The notes beneath the pieces are model-generated. The model saw only the letters and a program-made list of their open reading frames with translations. It ran no database searches and was not told the origin of the DNA. The position numbers and the translations under genes are program-made. From NCBI RefSeq assembly GCF_032362555.1, contig NC_083519.1, positions 3,923,501-3,987,500 on the forward strand: a DNA stretch of 64,000 nt. The letters run 5' to 3'. Numbering within the stretch: the first letter of the stretch is position 1; every line of letters begins with the position of its first letter. Positions 6,560-53,600 of the stretch are shown here, piece by piece. The stretch is from Amyelois transitella (lineage: Eukaryota > Arthropoda > Insecta > Lepidoptera > Pyralidae).

Positions 6560-6589
6560 CATTAAATGATACATCTTCTTCTTCCTCCT

Positions 6590-19082: not shown

Positions 19083-19186
19083 AAGCAAATATAAAAGGAA
19101 GTATGCAGGGATCGTGGCAAGTGGAAAGAGGTAGTCTCTGCCTACCCCTCCGGGAAAGAGGCGTGAGTTTATGTATGTATGTATGT
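19083..19186 (+). repeat. Short RTE-type LINE tail (R2)
   Basis: It starts in AGGAAGTATGCAGGGATCG, runs through GGTAGTCTCTGCCTACCCCT and ends in a GTATGTATGTATGTA tract. It is strongly 5'-truncated, about 100 bp, and close in sequence to the copies at 28342 and 51534, so it is probably young. Confidence 0.8.
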
Positions 19187-21333: not shown

Positions 21334-21430
21334 GTTTCAAGGTACGATAACATTTCAGTTAACAGTTGTTCAAACAAAAGTCAATGAAATTCTTATCACC
21401 GTACTTATATTACGTTAAACCATTGTAAGT

Positions 21431-23997: not shown

Positions 23998-26900
23998 ATG
24001 GATTCAGAAATTCCAAACTTTGGCGACCTTCTTCAACAAATTAGAACCAAACTGTGGATAGCTGGCATCAACTACGAGTGCCCTCAAAATTACTACCGGT
24101 TTTATATTCTCATCGTTAATTTGACAATCGTGGCGTCACAAGAAGTTTTATTCTTTATCAAATACGCGACGTTCGATAATTTTCTTAAAATAACCCAAGT
24201 TATACCTTGCACATGCACTTGTATCATTACACTTGTCAAATGTTCATCACTCTTGATTAAAAGGAAAGAAATAAATGAACTTGCAAATTACCTGCAAGAA
24301 TTATATGACCTAATTTTGATGGATGAAAAAAAGAAGAAGTTAGTGCGTAATGAGATGATCTTCATCAAAAAAATGATCAAGACGTTAAACATTTTGAATT
24401 TAGTTCTCATCGTCATATATAATTTCTCGTCACCATTTCTGATGCTTTACATTTACATGAGAAAGAATGAAGTTATATTCGACTTGCCGTTTCCAGTGGC
24501 AACGCCTTTTGAAATTGATTGGTGGCTGCCATGGTTAGTTGAATATCTTTTGTCCATCATTGCAGGTAATTACTTTTTTATTCTTCAAATGAATTTCGAT
24601 GTTGTAAGACTTCTTATAATTATCAGAAATGCGTGAATTAAAAAAAAACGCCCTTTGTTTATACAGACTTCACTATAATATCCGTAGGTACATCAAATTT
24701 CAGCGCAATGGTGTAATTTTGGATCAACGTAATAATAAATATTTAAGGGAATCGCAATGATTTAATTAGGGTTTCCGTCAGGAACTGGTCGGGGATCGAT
24801 CCTGGGACCTTTTAGATCATAGGCCAGAAGCCAACAATTTCGCCAAAAAAGCCGTCATGTCAGAATGTTTGTTCGTATGTATCGGTATGCAGATATAAAT
24901 TACGAACCTTGACCCGAAATGAACACCGGTTTAGATTACCTAGAGATATTTAAATAAATTAACTATAAAGACTAGTTTTAGCTATCACACTGTTCCTATT
25001 TTATTAACAGGTTTTTATTGCGTCCTCCTTTTTGTTACCTTTGACGCAACCTACTTCCTTCTAAGCACTACTGTTTACATAAATTTCACGGTACTGGCTG
25101 AAACTATTAGTAAACTTAATGGTAGAGGAAGTACAAAGGCTCTTAAGGATGTAATACAACAGCATCAACACATTATCAGGTATGATATTGAAATAATTAA
25201 TGTTGATATTTAGAAATACGTCACTCTTTATCCTTTACGTGACCGTAAGACAGAGAAACCGGCTAGAAAAAACACGAATTTGATAGTGGTAAGTTAGTTA
25301 GCTTTCTTATAAAAAGACCCAAGTTTTTAAGCCAAGTTTTCTCTCTATTAACTTCGACAATCTTTACGGAATAAAATTTCAGAGGTGCCACACATCGTTT
25401 TTCATTATAGATTTTAAAACTTTTTTTAAAAATATATATTATATTTGGTTGCACATCAAAAGTTTAAATAACTTTTTCTTATTTGTATTTGATGCTTTTC
25501 AGATTATCAAAAATACTTGATGACATTTTTAATGTTCCAAATTTTTTTAATGTAATGTTAGGATCTCTTGAGATTTGCTTCTTAGGATTTACTATTATGG
25601 TAAGTTCTTCTAACTTACTTTAATTACTTTTTATTCGCTTTTCTACAGCAAAAAAAGTAACGAAATGAAATATTATTTTTAGTTCATTTTTTAAAACAAT
25701 CTTGATATGTAGGTATTTTGATAAAAAATATCTAAGTATGGATACATAGTTATAACATTTGTTATTTCATTTTGCTTATTCTTCTCATGGCTATTAAGAT
25801 ATTAATTAATTTTAAAATGCATATTGTTATTCATAAATGTAAACAATATTTATATCAGTACCTTCTATTAGAAATGGACTATATATCATTTATTTGCATT
25901 GTATATAATAATACAATAAATTTTAGATGGGCACTTGGACGCAAATACCACAGTGTGTTTTTCTATTATTCTCCATCCTTCTTCAACTTCTAATGATGAG
26001 CTATTTCGGAGAAAACATTATGACTGAGGTAACAACATATTGGGTTTTTCTATGAATTGTTCTTGGAAAAAGTTAAACACATAAACCTATTTGTATTCAG
26101 AGCAGAAAAGTGGGGGATGCGGCGTTTCAGTGTTGCTGGTATTCTATGGATGAACAATCTAAAAAAATGATACAATTTATCATATCACGGTAAGATTTCT
26201 TTTTCCTGTCGAATATTTTCAAACAACCGTTTATTTGTATGACCATAACATTATACAGGTGTCCATAATAGCATTTGAGTAAAGAATTTAGCCTGATAAC
26301 AGGCATACAAATTTGGAGTGGAAAATAACATAATTTAATTATTGAATTAACATTTGAATAATATAAATCGATACATTTCAATGCTTTCGTCAATAACTTT
26401 GTGCTATTCAAAATTTATATTTATTATATTCTTCGTTTGTATTATAACTTTATCATTTCATTTCATTATTCGTTCTAGATCTCAGAAACCGCAGCATTTA
26501 ACAGGGTACAAAATAACGAAAATATCCTACGCCAGTTTTACTACAGTAAGTGAACGTTTATCAATACGTTGCCTTTGAAACTTTTTCGTAACGTTACAAC
26601 TAATAATGACTGACAAACAACACACAGCCGAAAGTACTACGTGGGAGGCTAAAATTGTATTTTCTTTAGGAAGTATATGCATTAGATTTATAGATATAGT
26701 AATATTTTCTAAATGTACACACGGAACGATGTTTTTAGTCTAATAGGCTGAAAATATTTTAACTGGAAACATCTACATACATATGAACTGTTCAGTTCAT
26801 ACATTACACCCTTACTTTAAAGATTCCAAGAATTATCTTTCAGAGGTTGCTAGCGCATCTGCTAAAATAAGAAACCCAGTTTATTAACCTATCCCTTGAT

Positions 26901-27090
26901 TGACTTTTACGATCCGCGCGAGAAGTGAAGCAACTGGTTATCTCGTCGAAAAAAAAAACGATAATTATATCCAAAGTATTGCGCCGTTATTAATTATTTG
27001 AAATTTGTATCATTTCAGATAATAAGCAAGTCATGGTCGTACTTCTCAATTCTCAGGACTGTTTATAAAGCACCCAGCAGTTCTACTTAA
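23998..27090 (+). CDS. Odorant receptor OR-A, seven coding exons, 387 aa
   Basis: Predicted insect odorant receptor: a seven-helix protein that forms ligand-gated channels with Orco in sensory neuron membranes. Exons: 23998-24565, 25011-25179, 25503-25599, 25927-26028, 26101-26189, 26479-26545, 27019-27090. The sum is 1164 nt with all phases consistent (1,2,0,0,2,0) and GT-AG at every intron. Several hydrophobic helices are visible, for example FYILIVNLTIVASQEVLFFI and ILNLVLIVIYNFSSPFLMLY. Diagnostic features are the SYFGENI block of exon 4, the GDAAFQCCWY-like block of exon 5, and the C-terminal SWSYFSILRTVYK signature. A possible AATAAA lies at 27152. It shares exon structure with OR-B and OR-C but is clearly diverged. 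The specific ligand cannot be told. Confidence 0.9.
26770..26935 (-). repeat. Degenerate R1 repeat in OR-A intron 6
   Basis: The middle block GAGGTTGCTAGCGCATCTGC and the block CCTATCCCTTGATTGACTTTTACGA are recognisable versions of the R1 consensus read on the minus strand. The ends are lost. It lies between exons 6 and 7 and affects no splice site. Confidence 0.5.
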
Positions 27091-28341: not shown

Positions 28342-28613
28342 ATGAAGAATAGCAGGTTGACTAAGCAGATATACAAGGAGAGTGTGGAGGGAAAGGTCGG
28401 AGTGGGAAGACCTAGACGAACGTATCTTGATCAAATTAAGGACATCCTGGTAAAGGGTCAGGTCAAAAGTACCCGAAACCGCCGAGCTTGTATGAAGAGA
28501 GTTATGAATGTGGATGAAGCGAAGGAAGTATGCAGAGATCGTGGCTAGTGGAAAGAGGTAGTCTCTGCCTACCCCTCCGGGAAAGAGGCGTGATTTTATG
28601 TATGTATGTATGT
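28342..28613 (+). mobile_element. RTE-type LINE tail with end of ORF intact
   Basis: A 68-codon open frame includes VGRPRRTYLDQIKD and ends RRACMKRVMNV..AKEVCRDRG, the C-terminal part of an RTE/BovB-like polyprotein. It is followed by the CTCTGCCTACCCCTCCGGGA block and a GTATGTATGTATGTA tract. The same C-terminus occurs in the LINE inside OR-C. A second, more diverged copy follows at 28690-28920. Confidence 0.75.
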
Positions 28614-28689
28614 AATAGTAGTTATTTCTGTGTCTTTAGTGATGCAACCATTCGACTTGTACGTTTTTGATGCAGGCTAATATACAAGA

Positions 28690-30905: not shown

Positions 30906-31674
30906 ATGATTGTGACTTTATCGGAGTCGGCTTAGAGTAAAGCTTGAGTGTTAAGTATTTTCACATGTTAAAAAATAAAATAATGGTAATTGAATTAAAT
31001 TGTTAGTGTCTTGGTGTTCTTGAGTATCTTTTATTTGAACCTATGTGTATGTACTGTAGTAATTTTTCTATAGATACCTATGGGTTATCTTATAATGATA
31101 AAAAATTGCACGTTTTTGAAATCCACCCGTTACTTAATCTTACATTCATAGGTTCTTAACTATTTCTTCATTGAGATCACATAAAATGAAGGGACGCCTC
31201 GTGTTAACGTAGTTGATATCTAAAATGAAGAGGGCCTTTTTCGATTTTTCAAATTATATGAATTTATGATCACATCAATGCTATTAGGGAATACTCGAAC
31301 GAGAATTCATGACCTTTTTGTTTAAACTATATGAAAGATAAAGGGTAGATCGCCTGTAATAGGTTTGGGATTCGATTTTATGAATTTATTTTTCAATAGA
31401 TAATTGTCCTTGGCTGTTTTGATAGCACATACAATTTAGAATAAAAAATGAAAAACTTTGGTTGTTTACAAGATTGGATATTTCATAACATTATATTAGT
31501 TTTGTTTAAAAAGCTTTTTTAATAAAATTCATTATAATACATAAATTAAGTTATATATCATCAGTCCCTAGGTGTAAGCTGAGAAATTACTTATGACAAT
31601 AAACTATGAAACATGAGTTAATGTTACAACAAGATCGGCATTGCAACGCTTACCTACTAACCAGTCAGTGTCTT

Positions 31675-31860
31675 CAAAAGGAAAATAGAACTTGGGATTC
31701 TTCTTTAAGGTGATGGGTTAGCCTGTAACTATTTGAATCTCAATTCGATATATAATCTCAATACAATTACATGTAGCCTTTCCAGGCAGTTCCAGGCAGT
31801 TGTCTTTGTCTACCCCGTAACGGACTTGACCTGACCTAACCTAAGACCTGAAAAAACGTA
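31675..31860 (+). repeat. R1 repeat, head-truncated
   Basis: It begins in CTTGGGATTCTTCTTTAAGG, continues with GGTGATGGGTTAGCC and TTTGAATCTCAATTCGATA, and reaches GTCTTTGTCTACCCCGTAAC. The right end is disturbed by a short GACCTGACCTAACCTAAGAC run. It lies 1.6 kb before OR-B. Confidence 0.6.
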
Positions 31861-33001
31861 TGTATAATAAATTCACAAGTCAAGGTTTATTTATACAAGC
31901 ATTTCAACACTTACAATGCAGCCAATGACTTCTATTTCACCGCGATTACTCATCCGCTTACATTTACATATAAAACGAACTTTTTCCTTGTGTTCAACAT
32001 AAAAAAATTCAGCCGCGCGATCCGTCGAGCGGTTTCTTTATAGCTGTCATTATTCAACAAGGAAGTTTGGACCACCTGAGCAACCTCTCCGCGCAATCTC
32101 CTGCATTGCAGTCATACATTTATATCACACCGAAGATAGAAAATGCTAGTAAAATTTGACTGCAGAAACATCGGCTGAATTTGAATGCGCAAACATATTA
32201 AAATTCGATTTGACGTACATTGTATGTTGGGTCTTAAATCTGGTTGTATGCACATGGTCCTCATTTCTATATTCTTTCCATACTAATATTTTATTTACGT
32301 TAAATCATTTGATAGTAACAAAGTAATATTGAAATACATGTTAATATTCTGTACTCATTCCCAGCATATAATATAAAATCCAGGCATGGCTATTTATTAT
32401 TATTATACAAAAATCAATCTTGAAAATATAATACCAAAGTATTTTTGTATAATATAAGTTAATTTATAAATTTGCTACTACGAGTAAATTGATGTTATCA
32501 AAATATTTGCCACATTTTTACTAAATCGATCATGAAATATTTACCACTTGGTATCAAAATTCTCTAGAAGCTACATTTTAATTTCTAGATAGAAAAGAGC
32601 CTCTTTAAAACTGGAGAAAACAGTTATTTATTGAGTTTTCGATTGTGGTATATAATTTGATTCATTTGACATGCATATAAAATCAAAGAAAATTAATATG
32701 ACAATTCCATTTTCACACCTATTATTTTCTGCTTGGGAAAAGTATTTCAAATGTGAAATGCTTGTCACCGCCTATCATATTATTAGAGATCAAAGAGGAA
32801 TATTAGTATAAAATCTTTGGTAACTCAAAAGTAGGTTAAAGTTACTTGCGAGCTTTTACCGTTGCAAGATACTTTACAAGAATAATTTTGACAGCAGGTA
32901 TCTTGATTTACAATATAGTGTGATTTTTTTTTAAACGTACAATGTTTTCCGGTAGCCATATTTGTTAAATTTTCCAAAACTTAAACCTTTCTTATGTTTC
33001 A

Positions 33002-33090
33002 GATTTGATATTTACTCTCAGTTACTTGTAAGGAGTTATTTGAAACTCAGCATTGAATTAAAAGACGCTATTTGTCTCGCTCTTTTAGTA
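33002..33090 (+). pseudogene. Exon-like block, possible OR exon remnant
   Basis: A good acceptor (ATGTTTCAG) opens a stop-free stretch of about 85-89 bases encoding something like DIYSQLLVRSYLKLSIELKD followed by AICLALL. It closes at a GTAAGT donor. The size and the downstream intron start resemble exon 3 of OR-A, and it lies just 5' of the duplicated OR unit. The peptide match to OR exon 3 is weak, so this could equally be chance. Confidence 0.2.
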
Positions 33091-33500
33091 AGTTAAGCTA
33101 CTCAAATTAAGAATTTTTCACTCTCTATTCCTTAGTTACTTTTAATTCGTTATTTTTTTAATTCTTTCCATTACGCATTATTTTAAACCACAGAATTATA
33201 ATTTATAACATCAACAATTAATTGCTTTCATATCAAATATTAACGACTAAATTATTATTTACAGAAAGACAAAAATATAATAGGTTTAACTTGTTACAAT
33301 ATAAGTACAGTAAGCATTGGTAAACGTATTATTAAACCACTTTGATGTATATGTATAATTTTTTATACAGTTTATTCGTCAATTTATTAAAACAATTAGT
33401 AAGTGTCGCGTTCGGGACAACTGCTTCTTTCACAATTGTATTTTGAAATATTTCAGAGGCGTACTTTGTGTTGGTAGCATTGCATAGGAAAACCAAAACC

Positions 33501-36500
33501 ATGAGTTTACCACCTTTCGAAGACCTTTTCAAACAAATAAAAACCAACTTTTGGCTTTTTGGAATCCCTTATGACCAACCCAAAATTCATATCAGATTCT
33601 TCATTTTGATTATTGGTCTGTTGCTTATGGCAACTGAAGAAATCTTGTTTCTTGCTTCGAAAATATCCACTGAAGATTTGTTAGTAATAACCCAACTGGC
33701 TCCATGCTGTTGTATCGGCGTTCTGTCTTTTTTAAAAGCGGTGTGCCTTGTTCCAAAAAGAAACAAAATATTCAGCCTCACGCAAAGTCTGAAAGTTTTA
33801 TACATCGATTCGATAAAAGAGATGGAAAAACGAGAAATAATACGCGATAACATAAATTTTGTCTCACTTCTGAGTAAATATTTTTTTCTGTTGAATGCTG
33901 TACTGATTTCGGTGTATAATTTTTCCACGCCGCTTTTCATTTTGTATGATTATATAAAGACCAATGAAATTGTATTTCGGTTGCCATACGACGTAATAGT
34001 TCCATTTCGCGTTGACAGATGGTCAACGTGGTCAGTGGTATACATTCATTCTATATCAAGCGGTAAGTTCGTTCTGCCCTTTTCTGTTTTTGTTTTAAAT
34101 TTTTCTCTGCTTGTATTTCGAACTTAGATTATTATAACTAGGGTTGCCATCTCTAAAATTTGGAAAACCGGACAAGACGCGTGAAAACCCCGGATTTTAG
34201 AGTCCGAAAGCCATGTTAACAAAATCTTTTAAACATATACAATGCAATGCAAAAGACATTTGAATATTAAACAACAAATCAGAACATTTCTAAAGTTTAG
34301 ACCTACAGCAATGTAAGCGGCCCAAATTTTTTTTATTTATTAATATTTTAAAACCCGGTCTACAAATGAAAACTTCCCCGGACGCTCCCCGGATGCCCTC
34401 TAAACTAGGACAAATCCGGCGAAACCCGGACGGATGGCAACCCTAATTATAACCGATACCTAGTACTTTTGCTTCACGACACGTGGTTGCTAGCTAATAA
34501 ATTGTGTAATTCTTGCTATAACTTGCTCCAATTTCTTTCAGGTTTTATCTGCGTATTATTTTTTACAACTATTGATATTCTTTACTGTATCCTTACTTCA
34601 CACATTTGCAATAATTTTGCCCTCATTTCGAATGATTTGTTAAAAATTAATTGTGAAAACGTAAACAATCTTAAAAATATCATCAAACAACATCAGCATA
34701 TCATACAGTAAGTTGAGTAAATTTTTAGTGGCTGTATACCTATGTATTTTAATATAATTATTTTTTTCCATTAGGACCGATCCTCTGGGAAAGCATTTTT
34801 TTATACTCAAGAGTATTATAGGAAACCAACATAGAGCTAAATCAATAAAACATGTTTCGCAAAGATTTTCGGCATACTAATATCTGGATACCTTAAGAAA
34901 AGTTTGTAGAAAATCCATCAAATATGCAGTCAGTAACGCAAAAGAACTCACATTCAAATTAATGACATCTATATTTTAATAGCTGTCTCTTTGTTTCAGA
35001 CTATCTCAAGAACTGGAGGACATTTTCAGTTTACCAAATCTTTTCAATGTGTTGGTGGGTTCGGTTGAAATATGTGCACTTGGATTTAATTTAACTGTAT
35101 GTATGTTAGTTTTAGTTTCAATTTATAAAATAATGTTAATAATAAAATAATGTTTTTAAAAGCTCTCCGTTTGGCAGCCCATTGTCGACCACAGCCTATT
35201 ATTTCCCTCTTAATCATAATACGAGTAGTTGTTAAAGTTAATTAAAATGTGACCGTTTTCTCTGTCTACCCCGCAAGGGTAATAGACGTGATTATATGTA
35301 TGTTAATTAAAATGTAGCAACTACAAATTCAAGATTTACAAAATCTACATGAAATAAAAATGTTTTTTACAAGTTGTTTTAATGCTTTTGTAAAAATAAA
35401 GAAATATGGACATGTTTGTTTATTTATCATGATAATTTTCAGATGGGAAGCTTGACTCAAGTGCCTGGCTGTGTTTTATTTTTGTCGTCAGTTCTGCTTC
35501 AAATATTGATGATGAGTGTTTTCGGTGAAAACCTTATTAGAGAGGTAATTGTGTCATAATCTTGTTATTATAATCTCGGTAATGTTAATTTCATTCCCTT
35601 CTTCACAGCGAGTAATTAACGGTACGAGAAACTTCAGGAAGATAATGACCAGAATGATTCCACTATTTTGGAAAATATTATCTATACATATAATAAAACA
35701 GTAAAAATATTTTGTCTGTACATTTAGTATTTTCGACTGAAATGGATAGAGCGACACTTAGAATAAAAAATAGAATGCAAATATTTTTTTTGTCTGTCTG
35801 TGTGTCTGTCTGTACGTATGATCACGCTTATCTCCGAAAGTATTGAACCGATTTATTTAAAACTTTCACTAAATAATTTGACTTTGACTTTGACTTTGAC
35901 CAATTGCTATGTTTTAACTCAGAAAAACATTTAAAGTTTGTTTCATCAAAATCGGTTCACTAAAAAAAGTTATCGTCATTTGAATGAAACCTAGGCATGA
36001 GTTGCCTGAAAATAGGTTACGAAATTTGAAATTCAAATTTTTTTTACTAAAAATATTTTTTTTGTGTTGTTTGTATATTTTATTTTTTATTTCACATTAT
36101 TGTAGATTCAATTCGAAATTTACGCGGACGAAGTTGCGGGCAACAGCTAGTATTATATGAACGGCAAAGTCCTACCTGTCACCTATTTTATTTTATAAAT
36201 ATATAGTTTTTGCAATTTTCCAGAGCAAAAATGTTGGAGATGCCGTTTACTTTAGCGAGTGGCATAAACTAGATGTAAAGACAAGGAAAATGATACTTAT
36301 CATTATCACTAGGTAAGGTATTAACTATCTAGTGCTCATCATAGCCTATCGACAATTGCATTTTCAGCTGCTGGTCTCAAAGCTCAGTAGCCGCTAGATA
36401 AAGCTTACAGTTAATTATACTTAAATCATGCTGTGAAGTATAAGGAAATGTATCATATTAATGACATAAACTTTTGACAAAGGGATTAACAGAAATACAC

Positions 36501-37179
36501 ATGATTATATAGGTTCGAATCCTTCCCAACTTACAAGGCATCCGCAGCCACTTATCAGTGACTATTTAATTTTATTGATGTACATTATTTTGATTACTAG
36601 TTGCCCATTGGTTCGAAAAAATATCGTTTTTAATTTTAATTATACTTAATCCCAATTATCAACATTGAGTATACATTTTCAGAGCCCGCAGACCCCAAAT
36701 ATTAACCGCTTATAAGTTTTCTACGATTTCTTATCAAAGCTTTTCTAAGGTAAGACGTTGTTGTACCTATATAATAAACTATTAAGAGTCTCACATGCAT
36801 AATTACAAAGCTTTTTTTTTTTCGAAAAAATTGGCAGACAATATATTTTCACTTTCCCTAATCCCTGCATATCATTGGTTTATGGTACTCGTGATCTGAT
36901 ATTTTACTAAAACGTTCTCAATTTGATAAAAATATACTATCATGATATTTTTTTGTTTGGATATAGAATTAGGAATAAGAAATAGTTACAGACACTAGTC
37001 TAAGCCTTTTTTTAATATAAGCGCACACTTTGTATTTTCTTTGATATCATACAAACAAAGAACATAATAACATATAATGTATGAGTACGGTTTCTTTTTT
37101 TTAGATAATCAGCTCTTCGTGGTCATATTTCACAATACTGAAAACAGTGTACAAGCCACCTGAAAATACTTCAACATAG
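33501..37179 (+). CDS. Odorant receptor OR-B, seven coding exons, 385 aa
   Basis: Exons: 33501-34062, 34542-34707, 35000-35096, 35443-35544, 36224-36312, 36683-36749, 37105-37179. The sum is 1158 nt with the same intron phases as OR-A. The frame is open 33 bases further upstream (33468), but comparison with OR-C, where that extension is out of register, places the start at MSLPPFED. It keeps the OR hallmarks: SVFGENLIRE in exon 4, GDAVYFSEWHKL in exon 5 and the C-terminal SSSWSYFTILKTVYK. No stop or frameshift is seen. Three insertions (hAT-like MITE, R1 tail, Helitron-like) sit in introns 1, 3 and 4, and none touches a splice site. An ATTAAA signal lies near 37328. It is about 97 percent identical to OR-C by eye count of residues. 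Confidence 0.92.
34139..34445. mobile_element. hAT-like MITE in OR-B intron 1
   Basis: The 307-bp insert has 13-bp inverted ends TAGGGTTGCCATC / GATGGCAACCCTA and is flanked by identical 8-bp duplications ATTATAAC (34131-34138 and 34446-34453). OR-C carries the uninterrupted site (GATTATTATAACCGATACC at about 40418). An 8-bp duplication with such ends points to the hAT superfamily. There is no coding capacity, so it is a MITE. Confidence 0.92.
35251..35301 (+). mobile_element. Very short R1 tail with 14-bp target duplication, OR-B intron 3
   Basis: Only the CTCTGTCTACCCCGCAAGGG block and the GTATG end of R1 are present. They lie between direct repeats GTTAATTAAAATGT at 35237-35250 and 35302-35315. 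OR-C lacks the insert. It is a severely 5'-truncated retrotransposition product of about 50 bp. Confidence 0.8.
35681..36150 (+). mobile_element. Helitron-like element in OR-B intron 4
   Basis: The insert starts TCTATACATATAATAAAAC after an A, contains a GTCTGTCTG run and a GACTTT microsatellite, and ends GCGGACGAAGTTGCGGGCAA then CAGCTAG before a T. A|TC...CTAG|T with no target duplication is the Helitron pattern. OR-C has the joined flanks (near 41562), with one extra base at the join. Confidence 0.8.
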
Positions 37180-37603
37180 AAGAATATGGAGAAAGCTACA
37201 TTTGTTATTTTTCTTATAGGAGATAGTAATCTCATCACTTAGTCACACAAGTTTGCAAATTCAAAAAGATCCAATGATCTTAATCCTGAGGGCAGTAAAT
37301 TCCAGTATTGTCCACAAAATATAAAAAATTAAAACAGAGCAAATGTTTCTTTTTTATTCCTCTTCTGGTATCGCGAGCAGTCAAACCACATTTAAGTTTT
37401 AGTATTTTGAGCTGTCTGCAGTTCATAGCTCATATAAAACAAAAAAGAAAGAAATCAAATTAATCCTGGCCAATCACTCTTTTCTTTTCAAGACTGTTGG
37501 CTCTGTCTACCCTGCAAGGGATATAGATTTGAATATATGTATGTATGTATGTAATAAATAAAACTGAGAATAAATCAAGATTTTATTTCGGAATCCATTT
37601 CGA
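37180..37603. other. Convergent spacer between OR-B and L1
   Basis: It holds the OR-B 3' UTR, an R1 tail fragment (37475-37552) and, on the minus strand, the L1 polyadenylation signal near 37582. The matching spacer in unit 2 (43886-44293) has the same parts, so the R1 fragment predates the duplication. Confidence 0.6.
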
Positions 37604-38032
37604 TTAGTAGGGGTATCGTCGGCGGGTGCTCAGGCGGTATCTTCCTTGTCTGCAATGAAAGAATTAAGTGTAAGTACTAAAACAGTGTTATCTAATTAAT
37701 CAACATGTTAACAATATCAGTGATTACTTATTGATTGATTCACGCATTGATTCCACATGAAGTAATAAAGTGATCGTTCATGAAATAATGTTATGTAATT
37801 ACAAAGTACTTATTTAGTTTTATAATCATCAAGCAAAATTTTGAAATATTGTCACGACATTATAAATAATTAGCCAAATATGACGTAGTAACCTATTTTT
37901 TAGCAGATTTCCTTTTTTAGGTGTATACCTAATTACAAATAAATAGGTTCAAACCATTTAATGATGACTAAGTTTTATTTATAAAATTTTTCATATTAAA
38001 CCGGTAGGTATGTAAAATAATCTATTTAAATA

Positions 38033-38383
38033 GTGCATTCAACTTCTAGGCGAGCGTCGGTGATCGAATTCGTGATGCGCAGAAAGGCGCAGAAATACCA
38101 CCTCGACCATGTACCAATGACTATTTTCAAAGTTATGTTCATTAGTTTGAATACTAACCGATGCTCTAACGGTGAGGGAAAACATCGTGAGAAAACCATG
38201 TGTAACCAACCATGGATCCAATACGGGTTAGGTTTAACCGCAAAGGTTGCGGAGGTCAGATAGTAGTTGCTTCGTGTCACTTGCCTAATCTAAGATCCAT
38301 AGTCAAAGGCCTACCTCGGGCTCCTCTCTAGAGAGGTGAGGGTGAAAACGGGACAAAAACCAGGAGGTAGAAGTGCATTCCAC
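38033..38383 (+). repeat. tRNA-headed SINE (R3) in L1 intron
   Basis: The element runs from the tRNA-like head (GTGATGCGCAGAAAGGCGCA) through CCAATGACTATTTTCAAAGT, TTAGTTTGAATACTAACCGA and CGGTGAGGGAAAA to GCGGAGGTCAGA and CTCTCTAGAGAGG. The unit-2 copy (44717-44870) carries the same insertion with its 3' half deleted, so it predates the duplication. Confidence 0.8.
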
Positions 38384-38645
38384 TTCTATGACAGAACTCC
38401 GAATAACAAGCTCAGACTATAAGGACATGTTCAAATTTTAACTCCTATCATCTATACCTCCGGTGTCAAATTATTGCTCAACGTGGGGCTGATTACAATG
38501 CTGTATCTTTATCAAAAATCGGCATGAAATCCATTAATTATTTTCATTAGTTTATAATGATAGATTAAATTATTCATAATATACCTAATTTTAAGATTAC
38601 AAAATGATAAAATTTTGCTGTCATAAATCGCAAATTTGTTGAAAA

Positions 38646-38912
38646 CATATGTACATACATACATATATATAATCCCGTCTATATCCCTTGCAGGGTAGAC
38701 AGAGCCAACAGTCTTGAAAAGACTGATACGTCACGTTTAGCTGTTTGGCTTTATGATGGAATTGAGATTCAAATACAGACAGGTTGCTAGCCCATCGTCT
38801 AAAAGAAGAATTCCTAGTTTATAATCCTTTACCTTAGTCGCCATTTACGACATCCATGGGAACGAGATAGAGTGGTCCTACTCTTTTTTTGGTGCCGGGA
38901 ACCACACGGCAC
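38646..38912 (-). mobile_element. R1 SINE-like insertion in L1, absent from L2
   Basis: A full R1 copy lies between 12-bp duplications ATTTGTTGAAAA (38634-38645 and 38913-38924). The unit-2 sequence near 45050 reads straight through (ACTTTGTTGAAAATATAAC). It therefore inserted after the duplication or was lost from L2 very precisely; insertion is simpler. Confidence 0.9.
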
Positions 38913-39788
38913 ATTTGTTGAAAATATAACTCTTTATAATTTCTAATAGAAGAAATGAATAAAATGACACATTAGAAAACTGCAAATGGACTCATTGAAA
39001 TTCTTCATTGAAGTGACGTAAAATACGAAACCGATTTAACCAAGTAAATTAGACAAGCTATTTTTATTAAATTAATATTAGGTATTTGTCGTTTCAATAA
39101 TTCTAAATTATATTTGTATGTGGAAGACTTAGAGATAATCGCGTCTTACCTAATTGAACAATTGAAAAACAAAACCTCTGTGTTGATAGTTAAGTCACCT
39201 CTTAAGTAAACAAAAAAGTCGTGATAAATATAGAAAGTAGCTGAAACTTACCCAAATTTGATCAAATCATCATTGCCCATGCGGAATTCTCCTCCACGGC
39301 ACGTGTTGAGGGTAATCTGGAGAGAGCTTGAGCATTCTCTGCCGACCAAATGGTCGTAAGAGACTGTCGCGGCAAAGAACTCCCAGGCACGGTTGTGGTC
39401 ACAGATGTAAGTGAGACAGCCAGGTTGTGAGTTTCCACCGTTATGGAAGAAGTCAGTGTTGATATGAAAACAATTAATTGGTTCCATATCAAATATTAAC
39501 GACTAAATTATTATTTACAGAAAAAGAAAATATAATAGATTGAACTTGTTACAGTATAAATACAGTAAGCATTGGTAAACGTATTATTAAACCACTTTGA
39601 TGTATACCTCCACGTATGAATTTATTTCAATGCAATAAATTTTTAAACAGTTTATTTGACAATATATTAAAACAATTGGTAAGTGTCGCGTTCGGGACAA
39701 CTGCTTCTTTCACAATTGGATTTTGAAATAGTTCAGATGCGTATTTTGCGTTGGTAGCATTGAACAAAGCCAAACCAAAACTAAAACC

Positions 39789-42700
39789 ATGAGTTTACCA
39801 CGTTTTGAAGACCTTTTCAAACAAATAAAAACCAACTTTTGGCTTTTCGGGATCCCTTATGACCAACCCAAAATTCATATCAGATTCTTCATTTTAATAA
39901 TTGGTTTGTTGCTTATGGTAACTGAAGAAATCTTGTTTCTTGCTTCGAAAATATCTACTGAAGATTTGTTAGTAATAACCCAACTGGCTCCATGCTGTTG
40001 TATCGGCGTTTTGTCTTTACTAAAAGTGGTGTGCCTTGTACCAAAAAGAAACAAAATATTCAGTCTCACGCATAGTCTGAAAGTTTTATACATCGATTCG
40101 ATAAAAGAGATGGAAAAACGAGAAATAATACGCGATAACATAAATTTTGTCTCACTTCTCAGTAAATATTTTTTTCTGTTGAATGCTGTACTGATTTCGG
40201 TATATAATTTTTCCACGCCGCTTTTCATTTTGTATGATTATATAAAGACCAATGAAATTGTATTTCGGTTGCCATACGACGTAATAGTTCCATTTCGCGT
40301 TGACAGATGGTCAACGTGGTCAGTGGTATACATTCATTCTATATCAAGCGGTAAGTTCGTTCTGCCCTTTCCTGTTTTTGTTTTTAATTTTTTATCTGCT
40401 TGTATTTCCAACTTAGATTATTATAACCGATACCTAGTTCTTTTGCTTCACGAAACGACGTTGCTAGCTAATAAATTATGTAATACTTGCCATAACTTTC
40501 TCCAATTTCTTTCAGGTTTTATCTGTGTATTATTTTTTACAACTATTGATATTCTTTACTGTATCCTTACTTCACACATTTGCAATAATTTTGCCCTCAT
40601 TTCGAATGATTTGTTAAAAATTAATTGTGAAAACGTGAACAATCTTAAAAATATTATCAAACAACATCAGCATATCATGCAGTAAGTTGAGAATTTTTTT
40701 GTGGTATGTACGTATTTTAATATAATTATTTTTTTTCCATTAGGAGTGATTCTCGAGAAAAGTTTAAATGCAAATTTACTATACTCAAGAATATTATAGT
40801 AAACCAACATAGAGCTAAATTAATAAAAAATATTTCGCAACAATTTTCGGCATACAAATATCTGGATACCTTAAGAAAAATTTGTAGAAAATTCAATAAT
40901 ATACACTCAGTAACGTAAAAGAACTCACTTTCAAATTAATGACGTGTATATTTTAAAAGCTGTCTCTTTGTTTCAGACTATCTCAAGAACTGGAGGACAT
41001 TTTCAGTCTACCAAATCTTTTCAATGTGTTGGTGGGTTCGGTTGAAATATGTGCACTTGGATTTAATTTGACTGTATGTATGTTATTTTTAGTATAAATT
41101 TATGAAATTATGTTTTTAAAAGCTCTCCGTTTGGCAGCTCATCGTCGACCACAGGCTATTATTTCCCTCTCATGCATAATACGTGAAGTTGTTAAAGTTA
41201 GTAACTACAAATTCAAGATTTACGAAATCTACATGAAATAAAAATGTTTTTTTACAAGTTGCTTTAATGCTTTTGTAAAAATAAAGAAATATGGACATGT
41301 TTATTTATCATGATAATTTTCAGATGGGAAGCTTGACTCAAGTGCCTGGCTGTGTTTTATTTTTGATATCAGTTCTGCTTCAAATATTGATGATGAGTGT
41401 TTTCGGTGAAAACCTTATCAGGGAGGTAATTATGTAGTAATCTTGTTTATTATAATTTCGGTAATAATTATTTCATTCCCTTCTTCACAGCGAGTAATTA
41501 GCGGTACGAGAAACTTCATGAAAACAATGACCAGAATGAATTCCAGTATTTTGGAAAATATTAGTATTATATAAACTGTAAAGTCCTACCTGTCACCTAT
41601 TGTATTTTACAAATAAATATTTTTTGCAATTTTCCAGAGCAAAAATGTTGGAGATGCCGTTTACTTTAGCGACTGGCATAAACTAGATGTAAAGACAAGG
41701 AAAATTATACTTATCATTATCACTAGGTAAGGTATTAACTATCTAATGCTCATCATAGCCTATCGACAATTGTATTTTCAGCTGCTGGTCTCAAAGCTCA
41801 GTAGCCGCTAGCTAAAGCTTACAGTTAATTAAACTTAAATCATGCTATGACGTATTACGAAATGTATCATATTAATGACATAAACTTTTGACAAAGGGAT
41901 TAACAGAAATTAACATGATTATATAGGTTCGAATCCTTCCCAACGTACGAGGCATCGGCAGCCATTTATCAGTGAATATTTAGTTTTCTTGATGTACATT
42001 GCTTTAATTTCTAGTTAACCAATGGTGAGAGAAAATATCGTATTCCATTTTAAATATTCTTAATCCCTTATGATCAATTATCTACATACATTATATACAT
42101 TTTCAGGGCCCACAGACCTCAAATATTAACCGCTTATAAGTTTTCTACGATTTCTTATCAAAGCTTTACTAAGGTAAGATGTCGTACATACATACATACA
42201 TAAAATCACGCCTCTTTCCCGGAGGGGTAGGCAGAGACTACCTCTTTCCACTTGCCACGATCTCTGCATACTTCCTTCGCCATCCACATTCATAACTCTC
42301 TTCATGCAAGCTCGGCGGTTTCGGGTACTTTTAACCTGACCCTTTACCAGGACGTCCTTAATTTGATCAAGATACGTTCGTCTAGGTCTTCCCACTCCGA
42401 CCTTTCCCTCCACACTCTCCTTGTATATCTGCTAAGTCAACCTGTTTTCATTCATCCTCTCCACATGACCGACCCATCTCAACATACCCTTTTCTATTCC
42501 TGTAACTCCACCTTCTTTCACATCACAACATTCCCTTAACACGCTGTTCCTTATCCGCTCACTCAATTTCACATTAACTAACCCTGTGCCGCCAGCGATT
42601 GATGATACCCCTTATCCGGGATATCACCAGTAAATGGTCCGAGTCAATGCCAGCACCGCGATATGCACGGGTATCCAGCACTTTGTTCTTCAATCTTTCA

Positions 42701-43885
42701 TCTACAATCACAAAGTCTATCATACTTTTTAAACTACCTTCCACTCTTGTGTAGGTGTGGATCTTTTTATGTCGAAACATTGAGTTCGACACAAAAAGAT
42801 CCCTTTCTAGACAAATTTCTAATACACTTCTTCCATTATCATTCACCATTTCGTCACCAAACGCACCAAGCACCTTTTCATATCCATCACGCTTTACACC
42901 CACCCACCCATTAAAATCACCTAGCATAATAATCTTCTCATTTGGCTTGGTAACTTTCAATACTTCTCTTACACTATTCCAGAACTCCTCGTTTTCGCTT
43001 TTTGCTGTTGTTGTACCCCTCGAACCCACGGTGCATAAACACCTAGAACGAAGATCCGAGTGATTCCAACTTTCAGCCTAATCCATAGAAGACGAGGGCT
43101 GACACACTCATACTCATTCACACTCTCAGCCATTCGTGCAGAAAGAATTAGACCGACCCCTTGACAGCCTCGGCTGGTACTGGAAATTCCAGACCAATAC
43201 GCCGTGTAAGCCGTGCTGCGTCGCGTCGCATCCTTTCCGTTTCGTTTAATTCACGCACAACACATCCAACCGTCTTTCACCCATCATCTGGCATACTTCC
43301 TCAATCTTATCCTTCATTCCTCCTCTTACATTCATCGTCGCAAAGCGGCTTTCAGCAGCCCGCATACCGCTCCCGCCGGGAACGAGACGTGATGGGGTGC
43401 AGACACCATCGTAAGATGTCGTTGTTTATAATCAACTATTAGGAGTCTTGCATACATAATTACAATGCTTTTTCCGATTAAATTGGCAGACAACATGTTT
43501 TCACTTTCCCTAATCCCTGCATATTTCTTTAGATTAAGGAACCTCAGTCTATCATACAAACTCATTGGTTTATGGTAGATACTCGTGATCCGATATTTTA
43601 CAAAAACGTTCTCAATTTTATAAAAATATATTATCATGATATTTTTTTAATTACTATGTAAGAATATAGAATTAGGAATAAGAAATAGTTACAGATCACT
43701 AGTTTAAGCCTTTTTTTTTAATATAAGCGCACACTTTGTATGTTCTTTGATTCCATACAAACAAAGAACATAATAACATGAAATGTATGAGTACTGTTTC
43801 TTTTTTTTAGATAATCAGCTCTTCGTGGACATATTTCACAATACTGAAAACAGTGTACAAGCCACCTGAAAATACTTCAACATAG
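39789..43885 (+). CDS. Odorant receptor OR-C, seven coding exons, 385 aa
   Basis: Exons: 39789-40350, 40516-40681, 40977-41073, 41324-41425, 41638-41726, 42107-42173, 43811-43885. The sum is 1158 nt with the same phases as OR-A and OR-B and all GT-AG. It starts MSLPRFEDLF and ends SSSWTYFTILKTVYK plus PPENTST. About 12 residues differ from OR-B (for example P5R, Q to H, S to I in exon 4, R to H in exon 6). In exon 1 silent changes outnumber replacements, so it looks functional. Intron 1 is 165 nt, a multiple of three, and has no in-frame stop, so an unspliced form would keep the frame. A 1.2-kb LINE lies in intron 6 just behind the donor. AATAAA occurs at 44039. Confidence 0.92.
42186..43410 (-). 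mobile_element. Internally deleted RTE-like LINE in OR-C intron 6
   Basis: The 1225-bp element reads on the minus strand. Its 5' part encodes an APE-type endonuclease, open over 42574-43029, with GDFNGWVG, DFVIVD and GIDSDHLLV motifs; frames upstream of that are broken. The reverse transcriptase is missing. The 3' part holds the VGRPRRTYLDQIKD C-terminus and a TATG tail. Perfect 12-bp duplications GTAAGATGTCGT flank it (42174-42185, 43411-43422). The left one contains the exon 6 splice donor. OR-B has the empty site at 36750. Confidence 0.93.
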
Positions 43886-44293
43886 AAGAAAATATATAGA
43901 AAGCTACATTTGTTATTTTTCTTATAGGAGATAGTTATCTCATCACTTAGTGACACAAGTTTGCAAATTCAAAAAGATCCAATAATCTTAATCCTGAGGG
44001 CAGTAAATTCCAGTATTGTACACCAAATATAAAAAATTAATAAACAGAGCATATGTTTCTTTCTTATTCCGCTTCTAGTATCGCGAGCAGTCAGATCACA
44101 TTTAAGTTTTAGTATTTTGAGCTGTCTGCAGTTCATAGCTCATATAAAACAAAATAGAAAGAACATTAAATCAATCGTGGCCATTCACTCATTTCAAGAC
44201 TTTGGCTCTGTCTACCCCGCAAGAAATATAGACTTGAATATAATAAAAGAAAAATGATAATAAATCAAGATTTTATTTCGGAATCCATTTCGA

Positions 44294-47200
44294 TTAGTAG
44301 GGGTATCGTCGGCGGGTGCTCAGGCGGTATCTTCCTTGTCTGCAATGAAAGAATTAAGTGTAAGTACTAAAACAGTGTTATCTAATTAATCAACATGTTA
44401 ACAATATCAGTGATTACTTATTGATTGATTCACGCATTGATTCCACATGAAGTAATAAAGTGATCGTTCACTGTTCGTGCACGAAAATGTTATGTAATTA
44501 CAAAGTACTTATTTGGTTTTATAATCATCAAGCAAAATTTTGAAATATTGTCACGACATAATAAACAATTAGCCACTTAAAAATAGCAGATTTCCTTTTT
44601 TAAGTGTATAATAAATAACAATTTAGGAGATTCAAACCATATAACGATGACAAATAGAATCTTAAGACTAAGTTTTATTTATAAAACGCTTCATATTAAA
44701 CCAGTAGTTATGTAAAATAATGATCGAATTCGTGATGCGCAGAAAGGCGCAGAAATCCCATTTCGACCTACCAATGACTATTTTCAAAGTTATTTATGTA
44801 CATTAGTTTGAAAACTATCCGATGCTCTTACGGTGAGGGAAAAGATCGTGAGAAAACCACGTGTAACCGTGTCTATACCTCCGGTGTCATATTATTGCTC
44901 AACGTGGGGCTGATTACAATGCTTTATCTTTATCAAACATCGGCATGAAATCCATTAATGATTTTCATTATTTTAAAAAGATAGATTAAATTATTCATGA
45001 TATAATTGTATGATTACAAAATGATAAAATTTTGCCGTCATAAATCACAACTTTGTTGAAAATATAACTAACTAAATAACTCTTCATAATTTTTAATAGA
45101 GGAAATGAATAAAATTACGATTAGAATGGACTCTTAGAAAATCTTTATAGAATTGAAAAATTGACGTAAAATACGAAACCGATTTAACCAAGTAAGTAAA
45201 ACTAACTTTTTTTGATTAAATTAATATTACTTGTTGTTTCAAGTTTCATTCTAAATGATATGTGTGTGTATGTGGAAGACTTAGAGGTAATCGAGTCTTA
45301 CCTAAATTAATTAAAAACTTGAAAACCCCAGAGGGGGTTTATAGTTAATTAAGCTCTTAAGAAAACAAAAAAGTCGTGATAAATATAGAAAGTAGCTGAA
45401 ACTTACCCAAATTTGGTCAAATCATCATTGCCCATGCGGAATTCTCCTCCACGGCACGTGTTGAGGGTAATCTGGAGAGAGCTTGAGCATTCTCTGCCGA
45501 CCAAATGGTCGTAAGAGACTGTCGCGGCAAAGAACTCCCAGGCGCGGTTGTGGTCACAGATGTAAGTGAGACAGCCAGGTTGTGAGTTTCCACCGTTGGG
45601 GAAGAAGTCAGCGTGACCCACGGCAGTTCCGATGCCAAGACCGGTGATGGCGCCGTTAGTGTGGATAGCTTCGACGTATCTGGCGTCACCAGAGTTGATG
45701 CGGTTGGAGTTCAAGTTCCATAGAGGACCAGCGGGGTCAAGACCTTAAATGGAAAGGCTGTTTTAATGTTCATGATCAAGATTAAAATTTTAATGTATAT
45801 TTAAATTTCAAAAAATAATATTATATATTATATTAAAATATTGCCCTTTTACATAGTTTCTCTTTGGCATAAGTTCTTGTTATATTATTTCCTTGATGTA
45901 CATAAATGTATAAATATGTATAATCTAAAATCTAATTACTTAGCCTAAATCTATAGATTAATGTATCGTGAATCACAAATATAAAGATAGTGCAAATAAT
46001 TCCACACAAAAAGTAGGTAACAATCATTTTAATCTAGATGTGATGACTATCTGTTAGAACATTTTAATTTCTTGCTAAGTACTTATGGTACTACCCAATA
46101 ACTATCGAGCTAATCCTAATGTTTCTAACATTTTAAAGGAAAATTTTAAACTAAGTATGACTTACCAGTAACACGAGCTACTCTTCCGTCAAGCTCCCTG
46201 CCAGCATTTCCCACCAAATGAGCGCCCAGACTGAATCCGACTAAATGAATGGTCTCGTATCTAGCTCCGGTTACACCGACGAGGTAACGGATGAACTGTC
46301 CTAATCCTTTGCCTACTGCAGGGACACCGCGGACAGCTGTGATGTAGTTAGAACGAGCCAAACGCCTCCAGTCAAGGACAATAACATTGGCTTCACCCTT
46401 CCCGAGATAAGCTGGAATGAATAAGATAGTTCAATAAATTACAAATAATTTTAGTGAATCTTCCTCTTAAATCGAGATACTCAACATACATACATACATA
46501 CATATGGTCACGTCTATATCTCTTGCGGGGTAGACAGAGCCAACAGTCTTGAAAAGACTGAATGGCCACGTTCAGCTATTCGGCTTAACGATAGAATTGA
46601 GATTCAACTAGTGACAGGTTGCTAGCCCATCGCCTAAAAAAGAATCCCAAGTTTGTAAGCCTATCCCTTAGTCGCCTTTTACAACATCCATGGGAAAGAT
46701 ATGGAGTGGTCCTATTCTTTTTTGTATTGGTGCCGAGAGCCACACGGCACGGAGATACTCAATCGTGTAAATTTACCTTCGCGGATCCTAGCGTTGATCC
46801 CAGTGTTCTGGTTGCTGAGCCAGCCGTGAGCGATCACCACGGTGTTATGGTTAGGGTTGAAATTGGAGCTCCTGATGGAGTCGGCGTCGTTGATGATCAA
46901 AGTTTGACCAGCATCAGGATTGCGCCTAGATAAATAAACAATTTTCTTTAGCATTTTTTTTTATTATTTAAATCTTTATATGTAAGTAGTTTCAAAGAAA
47001 TGTCGTTGTGAAAAAAAAAACGTGTATGAGTACTTTATTTAAATAATTGTTTGTTATGAAAAAGAAAAAAAAAAATTTTAGCTAAAATGTTTGTACCACA
47101 TAAAATACGTTCATTAAAAAGTTTCTGACATCTTGCAAACCAAAAATTCATAAGAATTTCTTGCACTATTTCTTAACCAGTTACTTGTTAAAATTAAAAA

Positions 47201-47755
47201 TACGAATAGGTAGAATTCTTATAACCTGGTGAACAATAAGTATAAGTTGCGTTCAGCAATCCCAACTAATAATTCTTCGTCAACTTCATCTTCTAAATCA
47301 ACATCATGCAGAACACCATCACCATCAGGGAATTGGATGAATCTGGGGTAAATGACATCTTCTCTCTGCTCAATGGGCACAGCATTGGCTGTGTATGCTA
47401 TAAATAAAAATGATTAGATTTCAGTTCTTATATGTAGTAGTTTTTTTTTTAAATAACCCGAATCATTCACCGTTTTCTGTGAATTAAATCTTAAAATCGG
47501 AGAATATCCTAAATTTTTATTATTTATTTATGAATGCAATGAAAGAACTTTAAATTCTAAAAATTTATAAGTATAATTACTTATTAATTCAATAATACTT
47601 GGACACCGAAAAAGTTGCTATTTTGATTGAATGAATGAATTTGAAAAATTTCGTTGCAGCAAGCAATTTAGAAAAATGTCCCTGCCTCATATGTTTCTTA
47701 GTATAAGTAGGTACATACCCAAAGATACAAACAGGAATGCAAGTGTCAACTTCAT
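44294..47755 (-). CDS. L2, pancreatic-lipase-family secreted lipase, six coding exons, 328 aa
   Basis: Member of the neutral lipase/phospholipase A1-like family. Coding exons in transcript order: 47719-47755, 47226-47397, 46777-46925, 46166-46411, 45407-45743, 44294-44339, sum 987 nt. It has a signal peptide MKLTLAFLFVSLG, an acidic propeptide-like stretch, the oxyanion block VVIAHGWLSNQNTG, the nucleophile elbow GFSLGAH (Ser180), GLDPAGP (Asp204) and CDHNRAW (His266). The triad is complete and the C-terminal PLAT domain is absent, as usual in insects. The exon 2 donor is GTTATA, weaker than in L3 and L4. AATAAA lies about 20 bases after the stop. It is probably digestive (inference). Its 3' half is duplicated as L1. 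Confidence 0.93.
46485..46751 (-). mobile_element. R1 SINE-like insertion in L2 intron 3
   Basis: A full-length R1 copy with an ACATACATACATACAT tail on the left and CACACGGCAC on the right lies between 11-bp duplications GAGATACTCAA (46474-46484, 46752-46762). It ends about 25 bases from the exon 3 donor. L3 and L4 have no matching insert at this place. Confidence 0.9.
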
Positions 47756-47775
47756 GTTGTCAAAATCTTATGCCC

Positions 47776-50631: not shown

Positions 50632-53600
50632 TTAGAAAGGGTATCGCCTGTTGGTGTTGACTCGGTATTCTCCTAATCTAAAAGAAAAAAAAAACATTTA
50701 TACATCTAATAATAATAAAATGTTAAACTTAATATGAATATAGCATATAAAAGGAAATACAATTGTGCTGCAAATGGTGGTCGTATTGTTATCTGAAGCT
50801 CAAAAAAGCCGTTTATCGTACTAGTTGCATTGAGTTGTCCCATGTTGGCAGCCATTAAAAGAGCTTCCATGTTTTTAATGCGTGATAGTCATGAAAACTA
50901 GAAATTTCTAATTTCAAGTAAATTCAAGTCATTCTCTTAGGTATTATAGCAATCTTGGTATTCAAAGCCAAGGGACAAGAAGCTGGTATTGACATATCAT
51001 AAAATTGTTAGTATAGGATCATTTCAATTCATTTCAAAAAATATTTATGCTTTTTCAGATTATTCCTTTAGAGAAACGGAAAGTTCATATTTACTCAGCA
51101 ACATAACAAATATTAATATTTAAAACAATCGGAATCTTACCCGAATTTGTCCACAATATGATTGCCCATGGGGAAGGTAGCTCCACGGCACGTATTAAGG
51201 GTGATCTGGACAGAGTTTGAGCATTTTCTTCCAATAAGATGGTTGTACGAAACAGTCGCAGCAAACAACTCCCAGGCACGGTTGTGGTCGCAGATGTATG
51301 TCAAGCAGCCAGGCTGGGAGCTACCACCGTTGGGGTAAAAGTCAGCGTGACCAATGGACGTGCCGATACCCAGACCAGTGTAAGCACCATTTGTGTGGAT
51401 AACCTCCACATATCTGGCGTCGCTAGCTCTTAAGCGATTCGAATTTAAGACCCATAGAGGACCAGCAGGGTCAAGACCTGAAACGACCACAAACTTAAAT
51501 TGAAAACTATAAATCAACACTTTGATTAATCTTTGGAGAGAGTGGAGAGAAAGGTCGGAGTAGGAAGACCTAGACGAACGTATCTTGATCAAATTAAGGA
51601 CGTCCTGGTAAAGGGTCAGGTCCTCGTACAAAACCGTAAAAGTACCCGAACCGTCGAGCTTGCATGAAGAGAGTTATGAATGTGGATGAAGCGAAGAAAG
51701 TATGCAGAGATCGTAGCAAGTGGAAAGAGGTAGTCTCTGCCTACCCCTCCGGAAAAGAGGCGTGATTTTATGTATGTATTAATCTTATAAATTTGGAGTG
51801 TGAAATTTAGCTATCTATTATCAAAATTTGTAAAGAAAATCCAGCTGTACTAACCAGTAATACGACTAACTCTTCCGAAAAGCTCTCTTCCAGCGTTGCC
51901 AACTAGATGAGCACCCAAGCTAAATCCGACTAAGTGGATGTCCTCGTATCTTGCTCCAGTGACACCAATGAGGTAACGGATAAATTGTCCTAAGCCCTTG
52001 CCAACCACAGGGATACCGCGTACTGCAGTAACATAGTTGGCCATGGCCAGTCGCCTATATTCAAGGATGATTACGTTGGTTTCATCTGTGCCGAGGTACG
52101 CTGGAATATTATAATTGTACTGTTAAACATTATCTTCAAAAGCTTATTTGCTTTTTTGTAATTTGGACTAAGTCGTTGGTCTTTGCTTATGGATAGTAGG
52201 AATTATGGCTCACTTCAACCTTAAAAAAATTTACTTATTAATAGTTATTCAATTAATAGAGCTGAAATATTTAGTACGATTTAAATTTTAAGTAGGTACT
52301 TTTCATATTCGTGGGTATGTTTATTATTTACTATCATTAGTATCAAATATAATGTAATGGACTCAATATTATTAACATACTAGAGGCCGCCCGCGACTTC
52401 GTCCGCATGGAAACCCTATCAATCCCGCGGGAACTCTGGGATAAAAAGTAGCCTATGTGTTATTCTGGGTCTTCAGCTACCTACATACCAAATTTCATGG
52501 TAATCGGTTCAGTAGTTTTTGCGTGAAAGAGTATCTAACAAACATCCATACATCCATACAAACTTTCGCCTTTATAATAGTACTAGAGGCCGCCCGCGAC
52601 TTCGTCCGCATGGAAACCCTATCAATCCCGCGGGAACTCTGGGATAAAAAGTAGCCTATGTGTTATTCTGGGTCTTCAGCTACCTACATACCAAATTTCA
52701 TGGTAATCGGTTCAGTAGTTTTTGCGTGAAAGAGTAACAAACATCCATACAAACTTTCGCCTTTATAATAGTAGTAGGATTATGCTCCTTTTATCCGATC
52801 TTACCCATGGCCACTTTGAAATTATATAAGTATATATTTGTTATAAAACTTACCATCCCTGATTAGTTCATTGAGGCCTGTGTTCTGATTGCTAAGCCAG
52901 CCGTGCGCTATCACAACAGTACGATGATTGGGATTAAAGTTGGAAGTTTTTATGGTTGCAGCATTGTTGATGGCCAAAGTCTGCGCGGAAGTAGGGTTAC
53001 GTCTAGAAATAATTAGAGCGACCATTAAAGAAAAAAATTCTGGTTTTCATTTAAAGTTTTCTAATACATACATACATATCGTCACGTCTATATCCCATGC
53101 AATTAATTTCAAAATCTAAAAATGTCAAAATTCTGTAGCGAGTTTTAAGATAAATAAATCATGATGAACAAAATGTGATCGGAAAATTGTATTTCATAGT
53201 TCCAATATTTAAAAATAATTTTACGATTGTAATTTCGTTTTAGGAATTTCCAAATACAAAGTAGTAATGTTTATTCAATATCACACTTAGGATTTTGAAT
53301 TTTTTTCCCAAATCATCAAAATATTTTTGATTGATCGTAAGACATTTATCATTATATGTATTGAAATAAAATATTACCTAGTGAACAGCAAGTACAAGTT
53401 ACGTTCAGCGATGCCTTGCAATAGTTCTTCATCAACTTCACCATCTAAATGTAATTCCACATTGTCACGGCCTCCTTCAGGAATGTCTCCAGTCGGCTCC
53501 ACAGCATTCTCTTTGGTGATAACTGCTTCGTCAATGGGCACAGCAATGGCTGTGTATGCTAATGGGTTTAAAGATATTGTTAGTTTAAAAAACAATCCAG

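Follow-up and report, generated by a model that had tools for sequence, protein, structure and literature searches.

Changes in the insect sense of smell are believed to be driven by receptors gained through tandem duplication, and to our knowledge the joints of such duplications can seldom be read. In the excerpts of the published reports on which we draw throughout, a close parallel to the locus presented here is the OR33 array of Manduca sexta, in which neighbouring receptor paralogues with 87-89% nucleotide identity arose by tandem duplication, most copies being intact; the responses of the duplicated paralogues overlap yet are distinct, and co-expression is possible (PMC11617253). Tandem duplications in Drosophila yakuba and D. 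simulans with breakpoints in genes are described as giving rise to partial or chimeric structures beside whole-gene copies (PMC4503668). At the level of the joint, fold-back copying has been described for polymerase theta (PMC4912351), and alternative end-joining junctions of Drosophila often carry templated insertions (PMC2895639). Here we describe a locus of Amyelois transitella at which an odorant receptor (OR) gene and the tail of the neighbouring lipase gene have been duplicated head to tail. It lies in a stretch of 64000 bases (contig NC_083519.1, 3,923,501 to 3,987,500; 33.7% G+C, 0 N), referred to below as the window, in whose coordinates all positions are given.

The two receptors concerned, OR-B and OR-C, are neighbouring and intact paralogues like those of the Manduca array. 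They are 97% identical in coding sequence. What sets them apart from the array as described in that excerpt (PMC11617253) is that a fragment of an unrelated gene is included in their unit and that the joint is readable. As in the Drosophila duplications a truncated gene stands beside a whole-gene copy, but those are recently derived and still segregating (PMC4503668), whereas the event considered here carries about 10% silent divergence. Its joint has what is reported of polymerase-theta snap-back joints, namely a short insert complementary to the sequence at the side of the break and hardly any microhomology; the junctions in that literature are experimental (PMC4912351, PMC2895639), while at this locus the pathway is read from an old scar. 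Among the matches listed in a search of the literature on insect receptor duplication, no title or abstract opening describes the OR-B/OR-C locus.

Anatomy of the duplicated units

The window was compared with itself by BLASTN, and the 60 best matches longer than 80 bp were listed. The strongest direct repeats among these form one collinear chain, 33213-39459 against 39469-45614, which on the forward strand delimits unit 1 (6247 bases, with OR-B and a lipase relic, L1) and unit 2 (6146 bases, with OR-C and the 3' part of the lipase L2). In a global alignment the units share 4752 ungapped sites with 372 differences (7.8%) and 45 gap runs, a likeness far beyond chance. On the left the break precedes the OR-B start codon by 288 bp, and on the right it falls within exon 5 of the six-exon lipase gene. 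Outside the breaks, 31200-33212 and 45615-47760 match other parts of the window only via dispersed repeats and the exons of two paralogous lipases, L3 and L4. The copies thus lie head to tail and align end to end, with homology stopping at the junction from both sides, and the duplication of an OR with the tail of its lipase neighbour is confirmed. A first-pass annotation had proposed just such a tandem duplication, with two consecutive units of about 6.3 kb, a first break in the 5' flank of OR-B and a second in lipase exon 5, yielding a complete second receptor and a truncated lipase as by-product; the self-comparison that it put forward as a check, the gene models and the content of the relic bear out all of these points, including its coordinates. 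Its statement that the units match through exons, introns and spacer holds for their collinearity, which is maintained throughout, but not without interruption, as large insertions (307, 51, 267 and 1225 bp with target-site duplications, and others without) leave the units unmatched in places.

The gene models of OR-B (33501..37179, forward strand; exons 33501-34062, 34542-34707, 35000-35096, 35443-35544, 36224-36312, 36683-36749 and 37105-37179) and OR-C (39789..43885, forward strand; exons 39789-40350, 40516-40681, 40977-41073, 41324-41425, 41638-41726, 42107-42173 and 43811-43885) each comprise seven exons encoding 385 amino acids in an intact frame. A third receptor, OR-A (23998..27090, forward strand), has seven exons and 387 amino acids, and the three genes have equivalent intron positions and GT/AG splice sites, without a stop or frameshift. 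By profile comparison all three belong to the insect odorant receptor family 7tm_6 (PF02949), scoring 146 bits (OR-B, E 1.8e-42), 148.7 bits (OR-C, E 2.7e-43) and 164 bits (OR-A), well above the family cut-off of 25.8 bits. Among solved receptor chains OR28 (8v3c) matches OR-C at 3e-21 and the Orco chains match it more weakly; in a collection of viral contigs no relatives of OR-C were found, the one pattern match not being confirmed. OR-A shares 172 identical residues with OR-B and 170 with OR-C over 388 alignment columns (about 44% amino acid identity), which marks it as an older duplicate.

Between OR-B and OR-C 36 of 1158 coding sites differ, with 12 amino acid differences. Silent divergence (dS) is 0.093 (95% bootstrap 0.059-0.134) and amino acid-changing divergence (dN) 0.015, giving a dN/dS of 0.16 (0.07-0.31), which is best explained by both receptors having stayed intact under purifying selection. 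Their surroundings are unequal: OR-B keeps its original upstream DNA, while OR-C keeps 320 bp of shared flank (39469-39788), beyond which lies the lipase relic. Hence, the regulation of the two genes may differ, their function as receptors and their expression being predicted from sequence.

Four insertions with target-site duplications are confined to one unit (three to unit 1, one to unit 2), the corresponding site in the other being empty. Intron 1 of OR-B contains a miniature transposon (34139..34445) with 13-bp terminal inverted repeats and an 8-bp target-site duplication, ATTATAAC; on account of these two features we take it to be hAT-like. This 307-bp insert was considered as a break in the OR-B coding sequence and rejected, since it sits in an intron whose position is the same in OR-A, OR-B and OR-C. 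A repeat that occurs often in the window has left a 51-bp fragment in another OR-B intron (35251..35301, 14-bp target-site duplication), and intron 5 of L1 contains a repeat resembling a short interspersed nuclear element (SINE; 38646..38912, 12-bp target-site duplication). The insertion in unit 2 is a fragment of a long interspersed nuclear element (LINE) with an endonuclease domain (PF14529; 42186..43410, reverse strand), which entered 12 bp into intron 6 of OR-C; its 12-bp target-site duplication doubled the donor motif GTAAGATGTCGT and left the original donor intact. The two copies of this motif, at 42174 and 43411, are 1.2 kb apart, and mis-splicing is possible. Five other gaps between the units were examined and showed no convincing target-site duplication.

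Sites outside the receptor exons differ by 9.3% (336/3594), or by 10.6% (331/3130) when two low-divergence lipase tracts are set aside, and silent and non-coding divergence therefore agree. With mutation rates of 2.9e-9 and 4.1e-9 per site per generation, as given for Heliconius melpomene and the silkworm (PMC10048334), the range of silent divergence translates to about 7-23 million generations. The duplication had been called recent in the first-pass annotation; given the dS, the non-coding divergence and the four unit-specific insertions, this description does not hold and the event probably took place millions of generations ago. It is still young beside the split from OR-A.

The repair scar and the fate of the lipase relic

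Lipase homology stops at 39459 and receptor-flank homology starts at 39469, leaving nine bases (39460-39468) that fit neither side in register. These bases repeat 33227-33235, just within the break in the receptor flank, in inverted orientation; with one flanking base on either side, the 11 nucleotides 39459-39469 match 33226-33236 exactly when inverted. They form part of an imperfect palindrome of 34 bp (39459..39492) with 17-nucleotide arms that are 88% complementary and not separated by a spacer; its left arm begins at the last lipase-matching base and its centre is a native 10-bp palindrome, CAATTAATTG. At the equivalent place in the unduplicated flank of unit 1 there is no corresponding inverted repeat. 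The 40 bases to the left and to the right of each break were shuffled by dinucleotides, and 23 of 20000 such flank pairs contained the 10-mer 39460-39469 in either orientation. The combination of head-to-tail copies with a homology-free joint is that of tandem duplication by end joining, and an insertion templated by inverted flanking sequence is that of a snap-back joint. Together they suggest that the junction was made by fold-back, polymerase-theta-like end joining, the enzyme and pathway being those to which the old scar points. The first-pass annotation had already remarked on breaks sharing little sequence and on a few odd bases at 39459-39470, from which it proposed end joining; all this stands, with the bases now recognized as a templated inverted copy within the palindrome and a templated fold-back as the probable pathway.

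The relic L1 (37604..39459, reverse strand), delineated by tblastn, consists of no more than the final 69 codons of exon 5 (39459-39252) and of exon 6 (37649-37604); in a tblastn search of its surroundings, exons 1-4 of the lipase and the beginning of exon 5 had no match. Its exon-5 piece scores 20.3 bits with PF00151, below the family cut-off of 27 bits. We take GFSLG to be the catalytic serine site and GLDPAGP the catalytic aspartate site of PF00151 lipases. The former is encoded in exon 4 and the latter at the start of exon 5, and both are missing from L1, which holds just the histidine region and, on these presumed triad positions, lacks the catalytic triad of a working member of the family. 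Without a signal peptide, the catalytic serine and aspartate and the 5' end of the gene, L1 was probably dead from birth.

A copy that was dead at birth would diverge like non-coding DNA, but the pieces of L1 are too similar to L2 for this, and gene conversion is the likeliest reason. The similarity is concentrated in two candidate conversion tracts. The first (37569..37780) has 0/212 differences to 44259-44470 and takes in L1 exon 6 together with 131 bp of the adjoining intron, and the second (39208..39442) has 2/235 differences to 45363-45597 and covers the exon-5 part of L1 and the start of the intron. Comparison of 0/212 in the first tract, and of 5/252 in 39208-39459, with 124/847 in the intron between them gives Fisher p-values of 2e-13 and 6e-10, respectively. 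The identical run of 212 sites was reached in 0/20000 permutations taken over the sites outside the receptor exons, and the second run, of 127 sites in exon 5, in 18/20000. After removal of 100-site windows with more than 12% divergence the longest run (198) was still reached in just 5/20000, so that on both the full and the trimmed set the differences are significantly fewer than in the surroundings, as expected of interlocus gene conversion. For the intronic 131 bp of the first tract the sole match is the other unit, and no further one was found at E 1e-3 in L3, L4 or elsewhere in the window, which makes family-wide or exon constraint by itself an unlikely cause.

Three of the five exon-5 differences fall in the last 17 bp by the joint, outside the second tract (3/17 versus 2/235; Fisher p 0.002, for a post hoc choice of interval). 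L3 and L4 have the same base as L2 at 39457 and 39444. L3 sides with L2 at 39443 and with L1 at 39389, two positions at which L4 differs from both L1 and L2, and 39261 is a site where neither L3 nor L4 has the base of L1 or L2. L1 thus looks like the changed copy at two of the five sites. We prefer a reading in which conversion went from L2 to L1 and probably overwrote the relic in part.

Competing explanations

We consider a single tandem duplication with a fold-back joint, followed by conversion from L2 to L1, to be the best explanation and a good deal more probable than not; one event is also the most economical reading. A segment of about 6.2 kb would have been duplicated head to tail, taking in the receptor gene with some 290 bp of 5' flank as well as the 3'-terminal part of the convergently oriented neighbouring lipase. 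The receptor-flank break would have fallen in or beside the 10-bp palindrome, where the 3' end may have folded back and acquired an inverted copy of about a dozen bases, before being joined to the break within lipase exon 5 with almost no microhomology, by alternative end joining of the polymerase-theta kind. Both receptors would then have remained intact under purifying selection while the L1 stub, probably dead from birth, was later converted by L2 over parts of its length. Several points weigh against this account. The two tracts sit on the two lipase exons, as would also be expected from selection on those exons, and in exon 5 the dN between L1 and L2 (0.019) is below the dS (0.044), albeit as calculated from five changes. 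The alignment at 38631-39207 is poor (19-28% difference) and inflates the contrast between tracts and intron; the run test is weaker on the trimmed set than in its plain form, and permutation ignores real variation in mutation rate. Further, the palindrome could by chance be older than the duplication, and the junction and units are read from an assembled sequence.

The same anatomy, with homology from end to end, would be left by an older and larger duplication of the receptor and the whole lipase, with the 5' portion of L1 and the flank upstream of OR-C lost in a later deletion across the boundary. A longer period of L1 function would moreover help to explain the low divergence of exon 5 (5/209 sites) and a dN below dS. 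We nevertheless regard this history as unlikely, in that it requires two events and leaves the identical 131 bp of intron next to exon 6 unexplained. Rather less probable still is that selection has kept the L1 exons, either as an alternative 3' end of the L2 transcript or for a short protein from the ATG beside the joint. An open frame (MEPIN...) that begins in frame at this ATG (39487) continues via exons 5 and 6 and ends at the normal stop. No change is seen in exon 6, its splice acceptor or the donor region of exon 5, and the dN/dS of exon 5 is near 0.4. But five changes are too few to tell this ratio from 1, and with just five differences an open frame is expected anyway. Three of the five alter the protein, one of them putting histidine in place of a proline that L2, L3 and L4 have in common; the identity runs on for 131 bp into the intron, and the catalytic serine and aspartate, at their presumed positions, lie outside L1. 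An assembly artefact, in which two divergent haplotypes of one locus were set in tandem, appears very improbable. Haplotypes joined in error can indeed look like this, with breaks in mid-exon and mid-flank, insertions confined to one unit and lipase exons that both copies conserve. However, the heterozygosity of the moth Arctia plantaginis, described as high in the excerpted report (PMC7433188), is 1.9%, roughly a fifth of the silent divergence found here (about 9-11%), the window is free of undetermined bases, and the templated inverted filler of the joint speaks against a mis-join, from which it is not expected.

Neighbouring lipases, repeats and wider meaning

Next to the duplicated receptors stands a group of intact lipase genes on the reverse strand, each with a gene model of six exons running to the stop. 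In L2 (44294..47755; 328 codons and stop) the stretch of exons 4-6 matches PF00151 at E 6.1e-45, the scanned stretch beginning with two intron-derived residues, and the splice donor of exon 2, at 47225, reads GTTATA, compared with GTAATA in L3 and GTAAAA in L4. L3 (50632..54416) matches PF00151 in exon 5 at E 1.6e-20; one of its introns contains an adjoining direct repeat of about 200 bp (52378-52586 and 52581-52777; 94% identical). L4 (58314..61287) is assigned by its tblastn match to L2. Upstream of OR-A lies a single-exon gene of the acid-lipase type (21428-22666, forward strand; PF04083, PF00561) with an open frame of 412 amino acids, whose family differs from PF00151. A tblastn search for a lipase relic beside OR-A (27-33 kb), which would have pointed to a shared route for the older receptor duplication, gave nothing better than E 0.29.

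Two dispersed repeats recur in the window. The SINE-like repeat, with an ACAT-rich end, is present at 38652-38912, 46487-46750, 58924-59176, 7366-7578 and 8140-8399, and thus also in introns of L2 and L4. The repeat that forms one end of the OR-C LINE insert has copies at 28342-28614, 42185-42455, 51535-51779, 6432-6562 and 19095-19187, one of them about 60 bp upstream of L3 exon 5.

It is conceivable, though we would give it very little weight, that selection or repeated conversion has preserved L1 exons 5-6, with the in-frame start supplied by the joint, as a small new transcription unit or an alternative 3' end before OR-C; were this so, the regulation of the new receptor would be tied to a lipase. 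More generally, the locus adds an example, with a scar that is clear, to a well-known kind, and its earlier reading as a duplication is right in outline. The joint, the fold-back filler, the unequal promoters and a relic that can reveal conversion occur together in one 12-kb locus, so that the order of events can be tested in related moths. The route to new receptors that it represents is an ordinary one, with a repair scar that is unusually readable.

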